Origin: Candidatus Electrothrix aestuarii
GTDB taxonomy: Bacteria > Desulfobacterota > Desulfobulbia > Desulfobulbales > Desulfobulbaceae
Reading direction: 5' to 3'
NCBI GenBank assembly: GCA_032595685.2
Contig: CP159373.1
Coordinates: 2,607,501 to 2,671,500, forward strand
DNA length: 64,000 nucleotides
Part shown: positions 47,280 to 62,866 of the stretch, one piece after another
Numbering within the stretch: the stretch's first letter is position 1
Layout: the number at the start of each line of letters is the position of its first letter
Notes under the pieces: model-generated
Databases searched by the model: none
Told to the model about the DNA's origin: nothing
What the model saw: only the letters and a program-made list of their open reading frames with translations
Translations under genes and position numbers: made by a program

Positions 47280-48332
47280 ATGATGAGTCAAGGCCAGCTG
47301 AACAGTCTGATTATAGCAGAATTACCGGTTGCTCTTTTTGTCGTGGATAAGGACTATAAAATTGTCGAGTTTAATCCTGCTGCCGAGAAAATCACCGGGA
47401 TGACGCGGCAGCAGGTGCTGGGATGCTGCTGTTCGGAAGTACTCTCTTCGAATATCTGTGAGTATGATTGTCCGTTGAAGGAGAGCGTGACAACAGGTCA
47501 ACCCTGCTTAGGAAGAGAGGCAATCATTCGGACGCGCAGTGGCAATAAGGTCCCTATTATCCTCTCTGGAAGAGCGATCACCAAGAAAACCGGTGAGCTG
47601 CTCTGTTGTATAGAGATCTTTCGCGATGCCACGGACACCAAGGAACTTGATGCCCATAAACGCAACCTGATTTCTCTCTTCACCCATGATCTCAAGGCGC
47701 CTGTTATGATAACCGGTGGTTTTGTCAATCGTCTCATCGATGGGAAGGCAGGACCTCTTAATGAGAAACAAACCAGTTATCTCAAAATCATTCAGAATGA
47801 GCTCAGGCGGCAAGAGGAGTATATTCAGTCTTTCCTCGATGCGTCAAAGATAGAATCCGGTCGGATAGAGTTAGAGCTTCAGCCTTGCGAATTGGCGGGT
47901 TTGCTCAAGGATATTGTCACAGGTTTTAAGGTGCAGGCATCCCTGAAGCAGATTGATATAAAATTGGAAATGGAGCATGATCTCGGCCAGGCCCTTCTGG
48001 ATAAATTGCATTTTGGCCGAGTTATCTCCAATTTGCTGGATAACGCTATAAAATATTCGCAAAAGGATACCTTAGTCCAGATGCAGGTACGCCAGACAGG
48101 TAAACATTTTATTTTTGAAATCAATGATCAGGGACCTGGCATTGCTCTACAGAATCAGCCTCATATTTTTGAACATTATTATCGCCCTACCCGACATTGC
48201 TGTGAGCAGGCTAAGGGGAGCGGGTTAGGGTTGGCAGCGGTGAAGGCCATTGTAGAGGCCCATTCCGGCTCAGTCTGGCTGCACAGTATCCCGGGGGAAG
48301 GGAGTACTTTTTTTGTTTCTCTTCCTAAGTAG
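47280..48332 (+). CDS. PAS-domain sensor histidine kinase
   Basis: 350 residues, soluble. The N-terminal PAS domain (about 8-120) begins IAELPVALFVVDKDYKIVEF and has a cluster of Cys (CCCSEVL, CEYDCPLKE) that could bind metal or sense redox state. HisKA: NLISLFTHDLKAPVMITGGF with the phosphorylatable His. HATPase: VISNLLDNAIKYSQ (N box), INDQGPGIAL (G1) and AKGSGLGLAAVKAIVEAH (G2). No response regulator is adjacent. A membrane anchor is absent, so the signal is probably cytoplasmic. It sits between mutL and a degenerate amidohydrolase gene. Confidence 0.9.
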   Translation: MMSQGQLNSLIIAELPVALFVVDKDYKIVEFNPAAEKITGMTRQQVLGCCCSEVLSSNICEYDCPLKESVTTGQPCLGREAIIRTRSGNKVPIILSGRAITKKTGELLCCIEIFRDATDTKELDAHKRNLISLFTHDLKAPVMITGGFVNRLIDGKAGPLNEKQTSYLKIIQNELRRQEEYIQSFLDASKIESGRIELELQPCELAGLLKDIVTGFKVQASLKQIDIKLEMEHDLGQALLDKLHFGRVISNLLDNAIKYSQKDTLVQMQVRQTGKHFIFEINDQGPGIALQNQPHIFEHYYRPTRHCCEQAKGSGLGLAAVKAIVEAHSGSVWLHSIPGEGSTFFVSLPK

Positions 48333-48367: not shown

Positions 48368-49546
48368 ATGGCAGAGACAGAGTACATTCTTGCAGGTCGT
48401 CTTATTGATGGTAGCGGCTCCCCGGTACGCCGGAATATCCTGCTGGAAATGAAAGACGGGGTTATTATCGCGCTTCGCTCCGCAGCGGAGGTGCCTGATA
48501 AGCCCGCAATCGTTGACGTTGATCTCTCCCATTGTACGCTTGTGCCAGCCTTGGTTGATTGTAGTGTGGCCCTTTTGCAATCGCCTTCTGTAGGTGGCAA
48601 CAAGGGGGAGGAGACTGCGGAACAGGAGAATATACAGAGGGATATGCTGGAGCGGCATATTCGTTATTGCTTTACTCACGGTGTGTTGGGCCTGCTTGCC
48701 CAGGATAAGAATAGCCTGCTGCAAGAATATCAAAGGGTAGATGAGGATAATGACCAGAAGAAGCAGAAAAAGCAGGTAAGGGGGCTGGACATCCGAACAG
48801 CCCATGACGGTGCGGATGCTGATGTGCTCCGTTTAATGTATTCACCCAGCATTGACGAAAATACTGAAGAGAGGGCAGGAGGTTCTCTCCAATTGAACTC
48901 TGCGGCCCTCTGCCATCTCCTGCAAAATCGGGACAGGAAAAAGGCTATCGTTGTAGCGAACGGTTCCCAACAGGTGGCTGAGGCACTGGAAGCAGGTTGC
49001 GATGCCATTGAGCAGGGCTATGCTATCGGTGAGGCCAATCTCAGGGTAATGGCGGACAAGGGCGTGCTGTGGATTCCGAATTTGGTGCGGGCCAAGAATG
49101 CTCTGGATGGTGCTAGCGGGGGAGGCTCGGTCTGTTGCCGTTTTTCCACCCGCTATGTTGCACCGGGTGATCCGATTCCCGGTGCAGAGGCCCATTGGAA
49201 AAAGGTCCTGGAGGAACAGCTGGCCCAACTGCGTCTTGCCCGAGAACTCGGGGTAAAGGTAGCTGTGGGAACCGGCGCAGGCTCAGTGGGTATCCTACAC
49301 GGAGAATCCGTGGTGGAAGAGATAAAGCTCTTCATCAAGGCTGGATACTCTCTGGAAGAGAGTATCCAATGCGCCTCAAAAAATGGAGCTGAATTCTTCG
49401 GGATGCAGGAGTTGGGGCAGCTTGCAGTCGGACAACGGGCTACCTTTCTTTTTACCCGAGGCACGGCGGGGCAGTTGCCGCGAAAGCTTGCTTATCTGGA
49501 GGGGATCTTTATGAACGGCCAGCCCAGTCCAGAGTATAAAAAATAG
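48368..49546 (+). CDS. Amidohydrolase-fold protein lacking metal ligands
   Basis: 392 residues with an amidohydrolase/imidazolonepropionase layout: small beta domain with YILAGRLIDGSGSPVRR, then the TIM barrel, then GMQELGQLAVGQRATFLF at the end. Family enzymes have HxH after the first strand (GLIDCHVH); here it reads LVPALVDCSVAL. The later His positions are also lost: AIVVANGSQQVAEAL where a VHA-type His is expected, and CDAIEQGYAIGE where the family has EHG. The catalytic Asp of the GTD motif is Gly (VAVGTGAGSVG). It is therefore very likely a non-catalytic relative. It may have a binding or regulatory role with the PAS kinase 35 nt upstream (inference). Confidence 0.8.
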   Translation: MAETEYILAGRLIDGSGSPVRRNILLEMKDGVIIALRSAAEVPDKPAIVDVDLSHCTLVPALVDCSVALLQSPSVGGNKGEETAEQENIQRDMLERHIRYCFTHGVLGLLAQDKNSLLQEYQRVDEDNDQKKQKKQVRGLDIRTAHDGADADVLRLMYSPSIDENTEERAGGSLQLNSAALCHLLQNRDRKKAIVVANGSQQVAEALEAGCDAIEQGYAIGEANLRVMADKGVLWIPNLVRAKNALDGASGGGSVCCRFSTRYVAPGDPIPGAEAHWKKVLEEQLAQLRLARELGVKVAVGTGAGSVGILHGESVVEEIKLFIKAGYSLEESIQCASKNGAEFFGMQELGQLAVGQRATFLFTRGTAGQLPRKLAYLEGIFMNGQPSPEYKK

Positions 49547-49556
49547 TGCCTGTCGA

Positions 49557-52500
49557 TCAGCGCCTCTCTAGTACAACCACTCCGTAATCTGGGATATGAA
49601 GATGACGATTATCTCCTCGATAAATATGAGCCTCCCAGCCGCCATTGGCGTGTTCATCTTCGCCCTCAACCCTGTATGCCCCCCAGGTTGAGTTCAGCAG
49701 CTCTTTATAGTTACCGTCAGGCAGATTCAGGTTATTGAGAGAGCGCCATCCTGCCCAGGGACTGAAGTTGAGCAGAATAAAAAGATCGTTTCCCTCGCCA
49801 CGGGTAAAGGCCAGTATGCCTTCCTGAGCAAAGGTAATCCGAAGTAATGAGGGACCTTCTAGGCGGGTATTGCCTCGGCGGATTTCCGCAAGTCGATTCC
49901 ACCAATTACGCATATGGCGGGCCGTTGTGTCCTGTTCATACTGATCAAGATCCAGTGCCCGATTTTCGTCTTTGGGAAACTGCCGCCACTCTCCCACCTC
50001 TGCCCCCATAAAAGAGAGCGGAACCCCCCGGCCAAGTAATGTTGCTGCCGCTGCCACCTTGCTCCTGCGCATTCCCTGCCCATAGCCAGCCACATTACTT
50101 ATGCGGTGCGGTTCATTGCCCACCTCATCGTGACTTTCCGCGTATATGGTTGCTTCGTGCCAGCGCTCACAGGCAGTGTGGGAGATTTTCATGGCATTAG
50201 CCAGCCTGCCCATGACATCCCAGCCCCGGCAGGCATCAACAAGGCAATCGTGAAAATCATCGCACCATTGAGTGTCCATAGGGCCTCCCGGATGGGTGAG
50301 ATTCCAATCATTGGGGAGATTTTCCGCCATAAGCAAGCAGCGATTATCGATATTATGAGCGACCTGCCGCAGTCGCTGGAGGAATTCCCAACCTCCGCCT
50401 GAGCCCGGTCGCCGAACATGGTAGGTCCATTGATTACCCATATATATAACCCTGGTAAAGTCAAAGCGGAAGCCGTCAATCCGGTAGTTTTGCATGAAAT
50501 GGGCCATGTTCCGCTCAAAGAAATGGATGACCTGGGGGTGATCAAAATTGAGCATGGCGCCCCAGTCCGTATCGCCGTCAAAGAAGCTTGATCCAGCTAC
50601 TGTCCAGAGAGGATTATCCGAAGCGCTGGCATGATTAAACACGACATCCAGCAGGACTGCTTTGCCTTGTTGATGTGCAGCGTCCACCAGTCGTTTAAGG
50701 GCATCCGGTCCCCCATAGGCGGATTCCACGGAGTAGAAGAAGGAGGGGTTATAGCCCCAGCTATGATCTCCGGCAAATTCGCAGGTGGGCATCAGGAGCA
50801 GGGCCGTGGCCTTGACCTTGCGGAGGTAGCCAGCTGGATCATTCAGTTCACGGGTTATAGCATCAAGTCCACTGAGTCCGGCACGTTTGCTGAACAGTGA
50901 GGGGTGGAGCTGGTAGATGTTGAGATACTCCCAGCCCGGTCGCTGCCAGGTATCACTTGTCCAGGAAAAGAGCTGATGGTCCACGAGTTTCGAGGCCCGT
51001 TCCGGGTCAGAGTTTTCCACCCAGTCTGCTGCCGGGTCTTGCACGTTATATATTTGATTGAGGCGAAATTTATAAAGCATGCCATGTAGTGGCCTGGTGT
51101 CTCCATTGGTGAGCTCGTCCCGCGAAATCTCCGCCCACCAATAGGCACCGTCACGGGTTGAGCGCATGGGCAAGGGCTCCTGCTCCCAGTTGGTCCATTC
51201 TCCTATGACCTCAAGGCAGGCAGCACTGGGGCAATGGACAGCAAAGCGTACCTGATCATCATCAACCCAGACCCCAGGCCTCTCTATAGTGAAGGGCGGG
51301 TCAAGGAAAAGGTCGGATTGAGGTCGCACAGGCAGTACATCGGCCCGCCCCAGAACGACGTAGCGATGGGTGCTATTGTCTTTCGCCTTGAGGAAATGGC
51401 GTTCTATGGGCTCGACCTGTTCCCCTGCTGAGAAGCGAAATGAGGTCACGGTACCCGGATAGATGGAGAAGCGGAAGTAGCCGTCCTCATCTGCCTGAAG
51501 GCCGGTATAGAGAGGGGCGCGAGCCCGGTTGATCCAAACCTCCAGGGTCAAGGGCTCTTCCTGTGGCATATCAGGGGCCTTATCCACAACCTCAAGAGAG
51601 ATCTCTTTTTCTCTGCGGGGGAGGTTACCATAGAGGGCATTATCTCCCTCCAGAGCCCAGACTCCTTCCAGGCCGAGTTCACTGGTGCTGCCGTCACCAT
51701 GTATAGCCCAGGCTGTGCCGTCTTCGGTCAGAAGGACTGTCCGACGTGCCTCCTTATTCTCCCAGGCTCTCTCTAAGTCAGGATTGTAGAACATGAAACG
51801 GTAGGGACGTCCGGTATAGACAGGATACTCAAAGCGAACCCAACCTTTTGCATCCACTATGCCGTTTGCAAGCGTGGTGGCGAAATCAGAGTCCTCCTGC
51901 CAGAGATGGATATGCAGGGGGGCGGAGATATTGAATTGGCGGGCATGAATAATCAGGGGCTTTTTCTTCGGTTCTTCCGAACTGATTGCTGAGGCCTGAC
52001 TGTGTACCCAGATTTCATTCCCATCCTGGGCCACCCAAAGACGGTTGGCGTAATCTGGCTCGTAATGGCCTTGCCGGTCAATGAACTTGAAGAGGAACAT
52101 ATGCTGCTCATCTTCTTGCAGCTCAACCTCGTAGAATGGACCAAAGTTATCTTCCCCGGTAGCCTGGACAGTGCGCCCTTCCTTGCCTGGAAGCCAGAAG
52201 TACAGCTGCCCATCGCGATATTTTTTTGCCGTGATAAGATGGATGGTCACTTTCTGTACGGCATCACCTGTAAAGGGATTCTCTGATACCACCCGCGCCG
52301 CATCTTCAGACATCCAGAGGTTTTCGGGAAAACGAAATTCCTTGGTACGGGGGATATTCTTCGGGTGATCCTTCCAGGCCCAGTCCCCGGTATAGAGCCG
52401 CAGGTGGGCTGGCTGGTGGATTTGGTGGTCAAGATTGGTCGTAAAAACTCGGAATCCATTATTTCCTTTTCCCTTATCCTGGGCATTATAAGCCAACTCG

Positions 52501-52580
52501 TGGTTGTCTCCTGCCTTGCGATCACGCCATACCCATAGACGTGGGGCTGATTGTTGGGTCAATATATGGAATGTGTTCAT
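49557..52580 (-). CDS. GH13-family glycosidase, branching-enzyme-like
   Basis: 1007 residues. The N-terminal ~430 residues are beta-sandwich carbohydrate-binding-type modules (several WxxxGRP/Y-rich stretches). A CBM48-like segment follows (VRFAVHCPSAACLEVIGEWT). The catalytic barrel has region I VLLDVVFNHASASDN, region II RIDGFRFDFTRVIY (nucleophile Asp), region III CLLMAENLPNDWN (acid/base Glu) and region IV YAESHDEVGNEPHRI (transition-state stabiliser Asp). A C-terminal beta domain closes the chain. It resembles glycogen branching and related alpha-glucan enzymes. No signal peptide is obvious, so it is cytoplasmic. It likely works with the glgC-type genes at 28.6-31.2 kb. Longer than usual GlgB (about 730) because of the N-terminal modules. 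Confidence 0.85.
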   Translation of the reverse strand: MNTFHILTQQSAPRLWVWRDRKAGDNHELAYNAQDKGKGNNGFRVFTTNLDHQIHQPAHLRLYTGDWAWKDHPKNIPRTKEFRFPENLWMSEDAARVVSENPFTGDAVQKVTIHLITAKKYRDGQLYFWLPGKEGRTVQATGEDNFGPFYEVELQEDEQHMFLFKFIDRQGHYEPDYANRLWVAQDGNEIWVHSQASAISSEEPKKKPLIIHARQFNISAPLHIHLWQEDSDFATTLANGIVDAKGWVRFEYPVYTGRPYRFMFYNPDLERAWENKEARRTVLLTEDGTAWAIHGDGSTSELGLEGVWALEGDNALYGNLPRREKEISLEVVDKAPDMPQEEPLTLEVWINRARAPLYTGLQADEDGYFRFSIYPGTVTSFRFSAGEQVEPIERHFLKAKDNSTHRYVVLGRADVLPVRPQSDLFLDPPFTIERPGVWVDDDQVRFAVHCPSAACLEVIGEWTNWEQEPLPMRSTRDGAYWWAEISRDELTNGDTRPLHGMLYKFRLNQIYNVQDPAADWVENSDPERASKLVDHQLFSWTSDTWQRPGWEYLNIYQLHPSLFSKRAGLSGLDAITRELNDPAGYLRKVKATALLLMPTCEFAGDHSWGYNPSFFYSVESAYGGPDALKRLVDAAHQQGKAVLLDVVFNHASASDNPLWTVAGSSFFDGDTDWGAMLNFDHPQVIHFFERNMAHFMQNYRIDGFRFDFTRVIYMGNQWTYHVRRPGSGGGWEFLQRLRQVAHNIDNRCLLMAENLPNDWNLTHPGGPMDTQWCDDFHDCLVDACRGWDVMGRLANAMKISHTACERWHEATIYAESHDEVGNEPHRISNVAGYGQGMRRSKVAAAATLLGRGVPLSFMGAEVGEWRQFPKDENRALDLDQYEQDTTARHMRNWWNRLAEIRRGNTRLEGPSLLRITFAQEGILAFTRGEGNDLFILLNFSPWAGWRSLNNLNLPDGNYKELLNSTWGAYRVEGEDEHANGGWEAHIYRGDNRHLHIPDYGVVVLERR

Positions 52581-52684: not shown

Positions 52685-53671
52685 TCAGTCCTTGCCGGAA
52701 CGCTCGATATAGATCTCCTTGTCGCATCTTGAGGTAAAGCTGTTGAAGGTCTTAGCCCCAGAAACCATCTTGGCGATGTCATCGTCTGGTACGATTTCTT
52801 TTGGGAGATTGATCCTGATTTCCTGAAGGAATTTTCTCTTGGAGCAGAGAACTTGCATCCTTTCAGCTACCTCTTTTCCTAGATTTTCTTCAACATGCTG
52901 GCGATACTCATTAAGGTTAATGGTCTCGCCAATACTCTCTCGTAGATAGGTGCCAACAGCAGACTTGTCCACTCGTTGCAGGAGGTCTTTTGCCAGCAGG
53001 AAATAGGTGTCGTCATCCCGTTCCTGGCAGGTGCCATGCTTGCTCCACTCATAATTACCGAAATTGGTGGAAAAATAGAAGTTAGGCATCCAGGGGGCCA
53101 TCGTGGCAACAGTATCTTCTCTCAGATCCATTTTTATCTTTGAGCAGTTGCCATACTTTTTGCCGCATTCATCTTTGTTTGGCCAAAGACCGTGCAGGGT
53201 CAGGTGAGATATAACCAGTTTTTTATCACCTTCCTCCATCATTGCGTCGCACTCAGGTTTTTTGCCTTTATACGAGTAATGCTCACAAAAACCGGGCTGC
53301 CATGTCATAGCCAGGACGTAACTATCGTACTTGTTAGGGGTGGAACAGACGGGTTGTCCCCCGTGCTCCGACTTTTGGTCAGAAGATATGATCTCCGTAT
53401 TGCCGCACTCTTTAGCGACCCAGCGAAGGTTATTGCTTGGACCATCCATAGATATACGAATCCAGTTCCACTCCTTTGGCTTATTAACCTCAACTATTTC
53501 GTAGCTGCTCCCCGCTGTTACTTTAATAAGGCCTGGATTTGTTCCTTTCTTAAAGGAACTATAGGCCTCGCAGGACCGAACGGCTTCAAAGGTGCCGCTT
53601 GCCTTTTCAGAAGCGAGCGCAGTTCCGCTGCACAAGACGACGATCAGGGCTGTGAGAATACGCTTTTTCAT
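52685..53671 (-). CDS. Secreted ribonuclease T2-family protein with N-terminal SH3-like domain
   Basis: 328 residues from ATG 53671, which has the strong ribosome-binding site AAAGGAGGAAAT directly upstream; an upstream in-frame start at 53719 is not needed. Signal peptide ILTALIVVLCSGTALA. Residues about 20-90 look like a bacterial SH3 domain (AGSSYEIVEVNKPKEWNWIR). The RNase T2 domain has both catalytic motifs: LTLHGLWPN (CAS I His) and NYEWSKHGTCQ (CAS II Glu/His). Eight or more Cys fit disulfides. It would degrade RNA in the periplasm or outside the cell, either for nutrient scavenging or as an effector. Neighbours give no hint. Confidence 0.9.
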   Translation of the reverse strand: MKKRILTALIVVLCSGTALASEKASGTFEAVRSCEAYSSFKKGTNPGLIKVTAGSSYEIVEVNKPKEWNWIRISMDGPSNNLRWVAKECGNTEIISSDQKSEHGGQPVCSTPNKYDSYVLAMTWQPGFCEHYSYKGKKPECDAMMEEGDKKLVISHLTLHGLWPNKDECGKKYGNCSKIKMDLREDTVATMAPWMPNFYFSTNFGNYEWSKHGTCQERDDDTYFLLAKDLLQRVDKSAVGTYLRESIGETINLNEYRQHVEENLGKEVAERMQVLCSKRKFLQEIRINLPKEIVPDDDIAKMVSGAKTFNSFTSRCDKEIYIERSGKD

Positions 53672-54105
53672 ATTTCCTCCTTTCATTGTTGCATGATGTG
53701 TTGAATCCCCCGGAACCATCCGGATTTCCGGGAGATGTGCCTCTGTTGTTTATTTTGAACGGGGATGAAATGGAATGAAGTTATTGAAATTACCTGATGC
53801 AATGGATAGGAGCATAGTAGACGGAATATTGTTTTTATTCCAGGTAATTTCAGAGCAAAAAATGGAACTTTTTCTTCATGAAAGGGCTGGTGACAGGGCT
53901 CTAGAAGCAAGGGATAATCCAGCAATGAGTATCTCGTCTGTGGTGTTTTTTCTTCTGCCCGAAGGAATGAGCTACGATTATTTACGCCGAAACAGGAGGT
54001 AAAGTCCTTGCAGGAGGAGACAAAGCGGAGTATCATTTTTTATATATATCTTTGCGCGGGAATTGCTCAGGATAAATAATATTCGCTATCGGAGTTCTCT
54101 CTGGT
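53672..54105. other. Divergent intergenic region between RNase T2 and rhomboid genes
   Basis: Should hold promoters for both flanking genes. A 75-codon plus-strand frame (53775-54002) lacks a ribosome-binding site and any recognisable motif, so I do not call it a gene. No strong -35/-10 pair is seen. Confidence 0.4.
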
Positions 54106-61837: not shown

Positions 61838-62866
61838 ATGACGAATACAAAAGACATGGTGCCGGAAAGATCGCAGGTTCTTATTTACCAGAGTGCAAAC
61901 GGCGAAATAAAAATTGATGTTCGTCTTGAAGAGGAGACGGTCTGGTTAACTCAGGCACACATGGCTGAGCTTTTTCAGGTAAAACCGCAGAACATAACAA
62001 TGCATCTAAAAAATATATACGCCGAAGGGGAGTTATCCGAGCAGGCAACGTGTAAGGAATTCTTACAGGTTCAAACGGAAGGTACACGCAGGGTTGAGCG
62101 GAAAAGAAAATTTTATAATCTCGATGCCATTATTTCTGTAGGTTACAGGGTGAAATCACATGTTGCCACCCAATTCCGTATCTGGGCGACTCAGTGTTTG
62201 AAAGAATACCTCATTAAAGGTTTTGTTCTGGATGACGAGCGTTTTAAAAGTGGCAGTTCAATGAACTATTTTACCGAATTGCAAGAGCGGATTCGGGATA
62301 TTCGGCTGTCGGAACGGTTTTTCTATCAGAAAATCAAAGATATTTACGCAACCAGCATTGATTATGATCCGAAAGACGAGAAGACGGTCGAGTTTTTTAA
62401 GATTGTGCAGAATAAGCTGCTCTGGGCGATCAGTCGGCAGACAGCTGCGGAGCTTGTCTACCGCCGGGCCGATGCGGAACTTCCGTTGATGGGAATGCTG
62501 TCTTTTGATAAAAAAGGAGATGTTGCTGTTCGTAAAAGCGATGTCAGTATTGCGAAAAATTATCTCACGGAAGAGGAAATGAAACTGCTCGGTCTGCTGG
62601 TCGAACAATTCCTTGCCTTTGCGGAAACTATGGCGCAGCAGCATGTTCCCATGTATATGAAGGACTGGAGACAGCGCCTGGATGCTGTTCTTCAGCTCAA
62701 CGGGCGGGAAATCCTCAGCCATGCCGGGAAAATCAGTCACCAGAAGGCTGTAGAAAAATCGGCTTTGGAGTATGCAAAGTATAAAGAGGTACAGAAGCAG
62801 GTTCAGCGGGAGGAGAGTTTGCGGGAATTGGAGAGTGATATTGAAAAGATTGGAAAAAATATTTAA
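61838..62866 (+). CDS. RhuM-family protein
   Basis: 342 residues. IDVRLEEETVWLTQAHMAEL, FQVKPQNITMHLKNIYAEGE and GYRVKSHVATQFRIWATQCL form the conserved N-terminal KilA-N/RhuM region. A helical C-terminal part follows, ending in a Glu/Lys-rich coiled coil. RhuM-type proteins are widespread near mobile and defence genes; the DNA-binding KilA-N-like start suggests regulation or a toxin-like role, but this is not shown. It starts 9 nt after the hybrid kinase stop, and the long open gene at 62884 begins 17 nt after its own stop, so the three may be one operon. Confidence 0.85.
   Translation: MTNTKDMVPERSQVLIYQSANGEIKIDVRLEEETVWLTQAHMAELFQVKPQNITMHLKNIYAEGELSEQATCKEFLQVQTEGTRRVERKRKFYNLDAIISVGYRVKSHVATQFRIWATQCLKEYLIKGFVLDDERFKSGSSMNYFTELQERIRDIRLSERFFYQKIKDIYATSIDYDPKDEKTVEFFKIVQNKLLWAISRQTAAELVYRRADAELPLMGMLSFDKKGDVAVRKSDVSIAKNYLTEEEMKLLGLLVEQFLAFAETMAQQHVPMYMKDWRQRLDAVLQLNGREILSHAGKISHQKAVEKSALEYAKYKEVQKQVQREESLRELESDIEKIGKNI

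Follow-up and report, generated by a model that had tools for sequence, protein, structure and literature searches.

CRMP-4 has the Amidohydro_1 fold and keeps two of the six metal residues, with Leu in place of the bridging Lys (PMC4051505). In the part of that report that is available, its cavity is described as retained and its DHPase activity as absent, a value of 58% is given relative to dihydropyrimidinase, and the CRMPs are described from the nervous system. A bacterial case is the pseudo-dihydroorotase of Pseudomonas, which according to the available part of PMC7053772 is inactive yet required by its partner, in a supporting role within the aspartate transcarbamoylase complex.

The gene analysed here lies at 48368..49546 (plus strand) of a window of 64,000 nucleotides, the whole stretch of DNA that was studied, from the genome of Candidatus Electrothrix aestuarii (5.11 Mb, one contig). 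It belongs to a family of amidohydrolase-fold proteins that lack the metal ligands. Among the literature matches listed, as judged by titles and the beginnings of abstracts and with subscription papers mostly uncovered, no description of this ligand-less family was found.

Fold, metal-centre positions and barrel mouth

The open reading frame starts with ATG and encodes 392 aa. Its product scored 44.6 bits against the Pfam family Amidohydro_1, for which the cut-off is 25, and an AF2 model built from an 81-row alignment had a mean pLDDT of 89.2 and a pTM of 0.91, with pLDDT below 50 at residues 170–172 and 254–263. The top solved match to the model was the Xaa-Pro dipeptidase 2qs8 (Z 36.9, rmsd 3.5, 350 residues), and the structure search also returned a putative prolidase, Cc2672, arginine carboxypeptidase and ochratoxin-hydrolysing enzymes. 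The model and the PDB matches cover residues 2–392, in agreement with the claim of an earlier note, made on the letters of this DNA, that the fold is kept over the full length; on fold, a barrel with a small beta domain, the protein thus belongs to the Amidohydrolase superfamily. The CRMP and dihydroorotase branches were absent among the 50 structure matches listed, beyond which they may still lie. The best rows are prolidase-like, and we assign the Xaa-Pro-dipeptidase / arginine-carboxypeptidase / ochratoxinase-like enzymes as the nearest group. With 54.3 bits against a cut-off of 500, the protein falls outside the NCBIfam equivalog NF051886 (Xaa-Pro dipeptidase), and no PADLOC defence family matched the gene at E up to 1.

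The metal centre of the superfamily is taken here to consist of six canonical residues, namely HxH, a carboxylated Lys, two further His and an Asp. This assignment is borne out by the aligned relatives that bear the ligands, because all six residues are conserved in 29 out of 29. In the window protein the same positions hold S66, A68, R155, V196, Q216 and G303, and none of the six ligands remains. The sites, all encoded on the plus strand and located by alignment, are as follows. In strand 1, the HxH has become S and A within D64-C-S66-V-A68-L69 (48557..48574); in strand 4, R155 occupies the position of the carboxylated lysine (48830..48832); in strand 5, the first His of HANG is replaced by V in V196-A-N198-G (48953..48964); in strand 6, EHG is changed to EQG (E215-Q216-G, 49010..49018); and in strand 8, GTDAG is changed to GTGAG (G301-T-G303-A-G305, 49268..49282). 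The H311-G-E313 segment after strand 8 (49298..49306) is kept, with H311, G312 and E313 each present in all 65 members of the ligand-less family.

These 65 full-length members, the window protein included, were placed in an alignment (A1) out of 96 de-duplicated rows; A1 omits other rows, comprising fragments, L082 and further full-length members. Three replacements are fixed: S at position 66, Q at position 216 and G at position 303 were found in 65/65 members, as against H, H and D respectively in 29/29 ligand-bearing relatives. The same letters dominate the whole 96-row set when rows with a letter at the site are counted, with S in 86 of 90 at position 66 (H in three, L107–L109, and R in one, L112), Q in 89 of 93 at position 216 and G in 91 of 95 at position 303. 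Positions 68 and 196, formerly ligands, are not specially conserved. Position 68 is S in 46/65 members and His, the second of HxH, in a single one (L012), and position 196 is V in 56, I in 4, A in 2, T in 2 and M in 1, with His in none. Position 155, a Lys in all 29 ligand-bearing relatives, is basic throughout the family, with K in 51 and R in 14 of the 65. Five of the six ligands, all but the Lys, are therefore gone in 64/65 members, and all six are gone in 14/65, including the window protein. The earlier note had stated that every metal ligand is lost, naming the HxH, the two His and the Asp; the alignment confirms this and adds the carboxylated Lys, which the note had left unmentioned. It had also named the alternative that the ligands sit at shifted positions. 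We saw none and reject this alternative, the motifs aligning free of gaps and three of the replacements being invariant.

The family also differs from its ligand-bearing relatives around the barrel mouth. After strand 7 it carries an inserted-loop region (residues 253–277, 49124..49198, plus strand, by alignment) with the motif C257-R-F-S-x-R262-Y263. The insert is about 16 residues long and corresponds to a gap in 16 ligand-bearing rows of A1. Its CRFSxR motif occurs in 65/65 members and Y263 in 64/65, and the part at residues 254–263 is one of the two low-confidence segments of the AF2 model. When the CRFS motif was sought in the alignments of ligand-bearing relatives, none was found to have it. 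Conversely, the family is without a loop, about 20 residues long, that joins strands 3 and 4 in these relatives. Within the pocket, N198 (65/65 members), E215 and H311 are common to the family and the ligand-bearing relatives.

Conservation of the mouth as a whole was assessed with a mask drawn from the DSSP string, with the insert included. Out of 391 circular shifts of this mask, only 5 gave conservation equal to or above that of the masked positions. This conservation is uneven: the mouth positions of strands 2–4 had conservation percentiles of 0.35, 0.27 and 0.42, against 0.76, 0.49 and 0.77 in ligand-bearing relatives. Because the strand 2–4 side of the mouth is relaxed, the pocket may not be whole.

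Ancestry, distribution and selection

The ligand-bearing set of 29 was made up of L107–L109, L118–L130 (the top 13 by score among the more distant matches, with L132–L142 outside the alignment) and 13 of 20 loci (L152–L162, L169 and L170). L151, L163, L164 and L112 lack one or more of the six ligands and were set apart. A careful tree of 60 rows was then built from 27 of the 65 members, the 29 ligand-bearing rows and these four, leaving out the broken copies L165–L168; its bootstrap was unsettled (0.979), and the supports below are to be read with this in mind. The ligand-less family formed one clade (support 100/99), and the sister of this clade (100/96) was L151 from genome G389, which has a dead site and no insert. 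The degenerate L112 (G008) branched next (91/90), on a long branch of 1.89 that makes its place unsure, followed with weak support (90/65) by L163 and L164, in which most ligands are kept and the Lys region is absent. All 29 ligand-bearing rows fell outside these. Shared ancestry with the ligand-bearing relatives of the same order is shown by this tree and the underlying alignment. Because the sister sequence has a dead site without the insert, the ligands were probably lost before the loop was gained, unless L151, a single sequence, shed the loop.

L163 (368-1378) and L164 (386-1480) keep the HxH, the strand-6 His and the Asp, and have the Lys region deleted; L163 has an Asp at the position of the strand-5 His. 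Since the family keeps K or R where these two have a deletion, they look like a separate route, and possibly represent a second, different way to a changed site.

In the window's order, some match was found in 107 of 159 genomes, with a match above 300 bits in 74 and none above that value in the other 85, where all genome tallies are by bit score and not by the residues read at the site. In a sample of the phylum, 63 of 297 genomes matched; five of these exceeded 400 bits, all belonging to the window's order or to closer kin, and the remaining 58 scored no more than 132 bits. A contig scan gave 83 confirmed loci. Among the best 80 of these, many carried labels of Desulfobulbaceae or relatives and others of Deltaproteobacteria or Proteobacteria. 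One locus (L007) lies on a 3,060-base contig labelled Planctomycetota, a label that we take for a binning error. Desulfosediminicola flagellatus IMCC35005 (L036) also carries a family member, as does Desulfobulbus alkaliphilus.

The gene seems dispensable in places, because broken copies (L165–L168) were found in four genomes and more than half of the order's genomes are without a match above 300 bits. Two further kinds of remnant were observed. In G008 a degenerate relative is split between two contigs, its parts L111 and L112 each lying no more than about 0.4 kb from a contig end, and this gene may have been interrupted by a mobile element. Partial C-terminal copies lie a few kb from a full copy in L110 (1713-2207 and 7644-7841) and L004 (2126-2671).

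Where the gene is kept, it is well conserved. The frames of the 65 aligned members are open. Identity between pairs averages 0.64, with a minimum of 0.43, and at 74 positions 64 or more of the 65 rows have the same residue. Over eight member pairs, dN/dS ranged from 0.11 to 0.39, one of the eight, the window gene against L083, having a high dS of 1.1; for the copy in G007, 96% identical to that of the window, dN/dS was 0.12. The gene is, on these ratios, held by purifying selection. It has kept the fold, has lost the metal ligands and is under selection, which are the marks of a pseudoenzyme. Taken together, the fixed replacements, the CRFSxR insert, the single clade and the dN/dS range argue from sequence that the gene is a conserved pseudoenzyme of the amidohydrolase superfamily. 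That an intact frame with a dead site points to a new role, as the earlier note had suggested, is made likely by the same dN/dS values, the invariant replacements and the insert, and the new job of the protein is probably metal-free.

Possible roles of the protein

The explanation we prefer, with a probability that we put at about even, is that the protein binds a ligand or regulates a partner without a metal, making new use of the old pocket, which the new loop closes. Such a protein would bind no metal at the old site and would carry out no hydrolysis by the old mechanism. The mouth on the side of strands 1 and 5–8 (D64, S66, N198, E215, Q216, H311 and E313) would hold a ligand or a partner. 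The CRFSxRY loop, modelled with low confidence, would form a lid or a docking element at the mouth and become ordered on binding. Because the loop contains two Arg and position 155 is always basic, an acidic group on the ligand would suit this arrangement. The function would then be binding-coupled regulation or sequestration. A bolder reading, which we consider rather unlikely, is that a dead amidohydrolase pocket gave rise, a single time and early in the order Desulfobulbales, to a metal-free catalyst or an obligate binding protein: the ligands would have been lost first, giving the state seen in L151, and the invariant CRFSxRY lid would have followed, producing a new activity typical of the order.

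The residues that support a binding role could also support catalysis. In a metal-independent enzyme the old pocket would have been refitted, for example with C65, S66, E215, Q216 and H311 together with C257, R258 and R262 of the loop. The LigI lactonase provides a case of metal-free catalysis within the amidohydrolase superfamily. Potentially reactive residues at the mouth and in the insert show little or no variation (C257, R258, S260 and R262 in 65/65, C65 in 61/65), and the mouth is conserved, but this invariance suits binding equally well and we know of no matching catalytic arrangement for such a refitted pocket. We regard a metal-independent enzyme as rather doubtful.

It is unlikely that the protein is a supporting subunit without a ligand of its own. 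This would make it comparable to the pseudo-dihydroorotase that serves aspartate transcarbamoylase, the superfamily precedent given in the available part of PMC7053772. Nine genomes (G011, G017, G371, G377, G379, G385, G397, G404 and G435) have a copy above 300 bits, broken in G379, alongside a ligand-bearing copy that was checked, so mixed oligomers would be possible there. Against this, 59 of the 74 carriers, defined as genomes with a match above 300 bits, have a single match, so that no ligand-bearing copy was found there at that threshold. Neither did clustering of the neighbours at 80 loci and of 43 same-strand upstream ORFs bring out a widely shared neighbour gene that might be an operon partner. 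At 7 of the 80 loci there was no upstream ORF of 100 aa, the gene lying near a contig end. The two commonest clusters were found at 10 of the 80 loci each; one of them, presumably aspartokinase as recognised by eye, is always on the opposite strand. In the window, the gene is convergent with that of a 1007-aa alpha-amylase-family protein (49557-52580) with pullulanase-associated and CBM48 domains by Pfam. Beside this GH13-like protein, on the minus strand at 52685-53719, is an RNase T2 family protein (Pfam, 69 bits), and a RhuM-family protein (61838-62866; Pfam, 351 bits) directly follows a large hybrid histidine kinase. The flanks of 20 ligand-bearing regions, among which L177 gave no anchor, contained a multi-gene block common to L180, L181 and L190 and a shorter one in L176 and L179.

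A rebuilt metal site at the mouth, formed by C257, C65, H311, E313 and D64, is quite improbable. All five residues are invariant or nearly so, as such a site would require. Nevertheless, C65 is missing in 4 of the 65 members, and D64, H311 and, in the listed ligand-bearing members from the order, E313 also occur beside the normal metal site and so need no new metal role.

The earlier note had also proposed that the protein works, perhaps in sensing, with the adjoining PAS kinase. This PAS-HisKA-HATPase histidine kinase is encoded upstream at 47280..48332 (plus strand, by Pfam), 35 bases from the gene and on the same strand, and is itself preceded by mutL. We searched for the kinase in 57 genomes and then in the 159 of the order, and inspected its flanks in G004, G003, G001, G012 and G023, where MutL was identified by eye. 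Kinase and gene were adjacent in four genomes (G000, G007, G003 and G006), all of one genus. In G004 and G001, of the same genus, the kinase is present and followed by something other than this gene, G004 having no match to the pseudoenzyme gene and G001 carrying it, and in G012 about 0.8 Mb of the same contig separates the two genes. Close kinase relatives (E up to 1e-80) were found in 11 of the 74 carriers and in 2 of the 85 other genomes of the order (Fisher p 0.007, uncorrected for kinship). The excess fell to 6 carriers against 2 others when the window's genus was left out (p 0.14, likewise uncorrected), and 63 of the 74 carriers had no close relative at this cut-off. Kinases are also abundant, first-look candidates numbering as many as 173 in one of the genomes listed. 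The second of the two commonest neighbour clusters consists of large sensory proteins. Two of them match the window kinase at 45–50 bits, but the position of the cluster members varies from locus to locus and they occur on both strands. Adjacency is thus confirmed within a single genus and rejected as a general feature, leaving a weak co-occurrence in place of the co-conservation that the note had looked to. The link to the kinase is local, or a minor theme at best, and hardly a fixed partnership; a joint function is very unlikely, and the kinase is read as outside the system.

That the gene is a functionless, decaying pseudogene is scarcely credible: the broken L165–L168 and the two-piece copy in G008 fit decay, but the 65 open frames, the low dN/dS values, that of the G007 pair included, and the invariant replacements and insert do not.

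Comparison with known systems

A profile search labels the protein an amidohydrolase, though the metal site has been lost across a family that is widespread. Living proteins provide a natural series, from six ligands (29 sequences) through partial loss (L163 and L164) and a dead site without the insert (L151) to a dead site with the loop (65 sequences). Because this series exists, the order of events from metalloenzyme to pseudoenzyme can be tested, and the same genomes supply ligand-bearing controls.

In the searches made, the relatives nearest to the family are ligand-bearing proteins from within its own order and phylum, which have N198, E215 and H311 in common with it; they differ in keeping HxH, Lys, His, His and Asp without exception and in lacking the CRFS motif. 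The Xaa-Pro dipeptidase, arginine carboxypeptidase and ochratoxinase-like enzymes (2qs8, 3mtw, 3be7, 8ihq and 4c5y) are alike over the whole fold, and phmmer also matched several of them. A model of a ligand-bearing sister matched 2qs8 with Z 43.4, higher than the family protein. Compared with these prolidase-like enzymes, the window protein is without the metal ligands and has the strand-7 insert, and its strand 3–4 region is shorter than that of the ligand-bearing sisters.

The pseudo-dihydroorotase and the CRMPs can be likened to the window protein by description, as far as the available parts of the two reports extend. The former is a bacterial, inactive dihydroorotase homologue with a supporting role, but it has a known partner enzyme, and none is evident for the window protein. 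The CRMPs have likewise kept the fold and lost most of the metal residues; they are close to dihydropyrimidinase and come from the nervous system, whereas the best matches of the window protein are prolidase-like.
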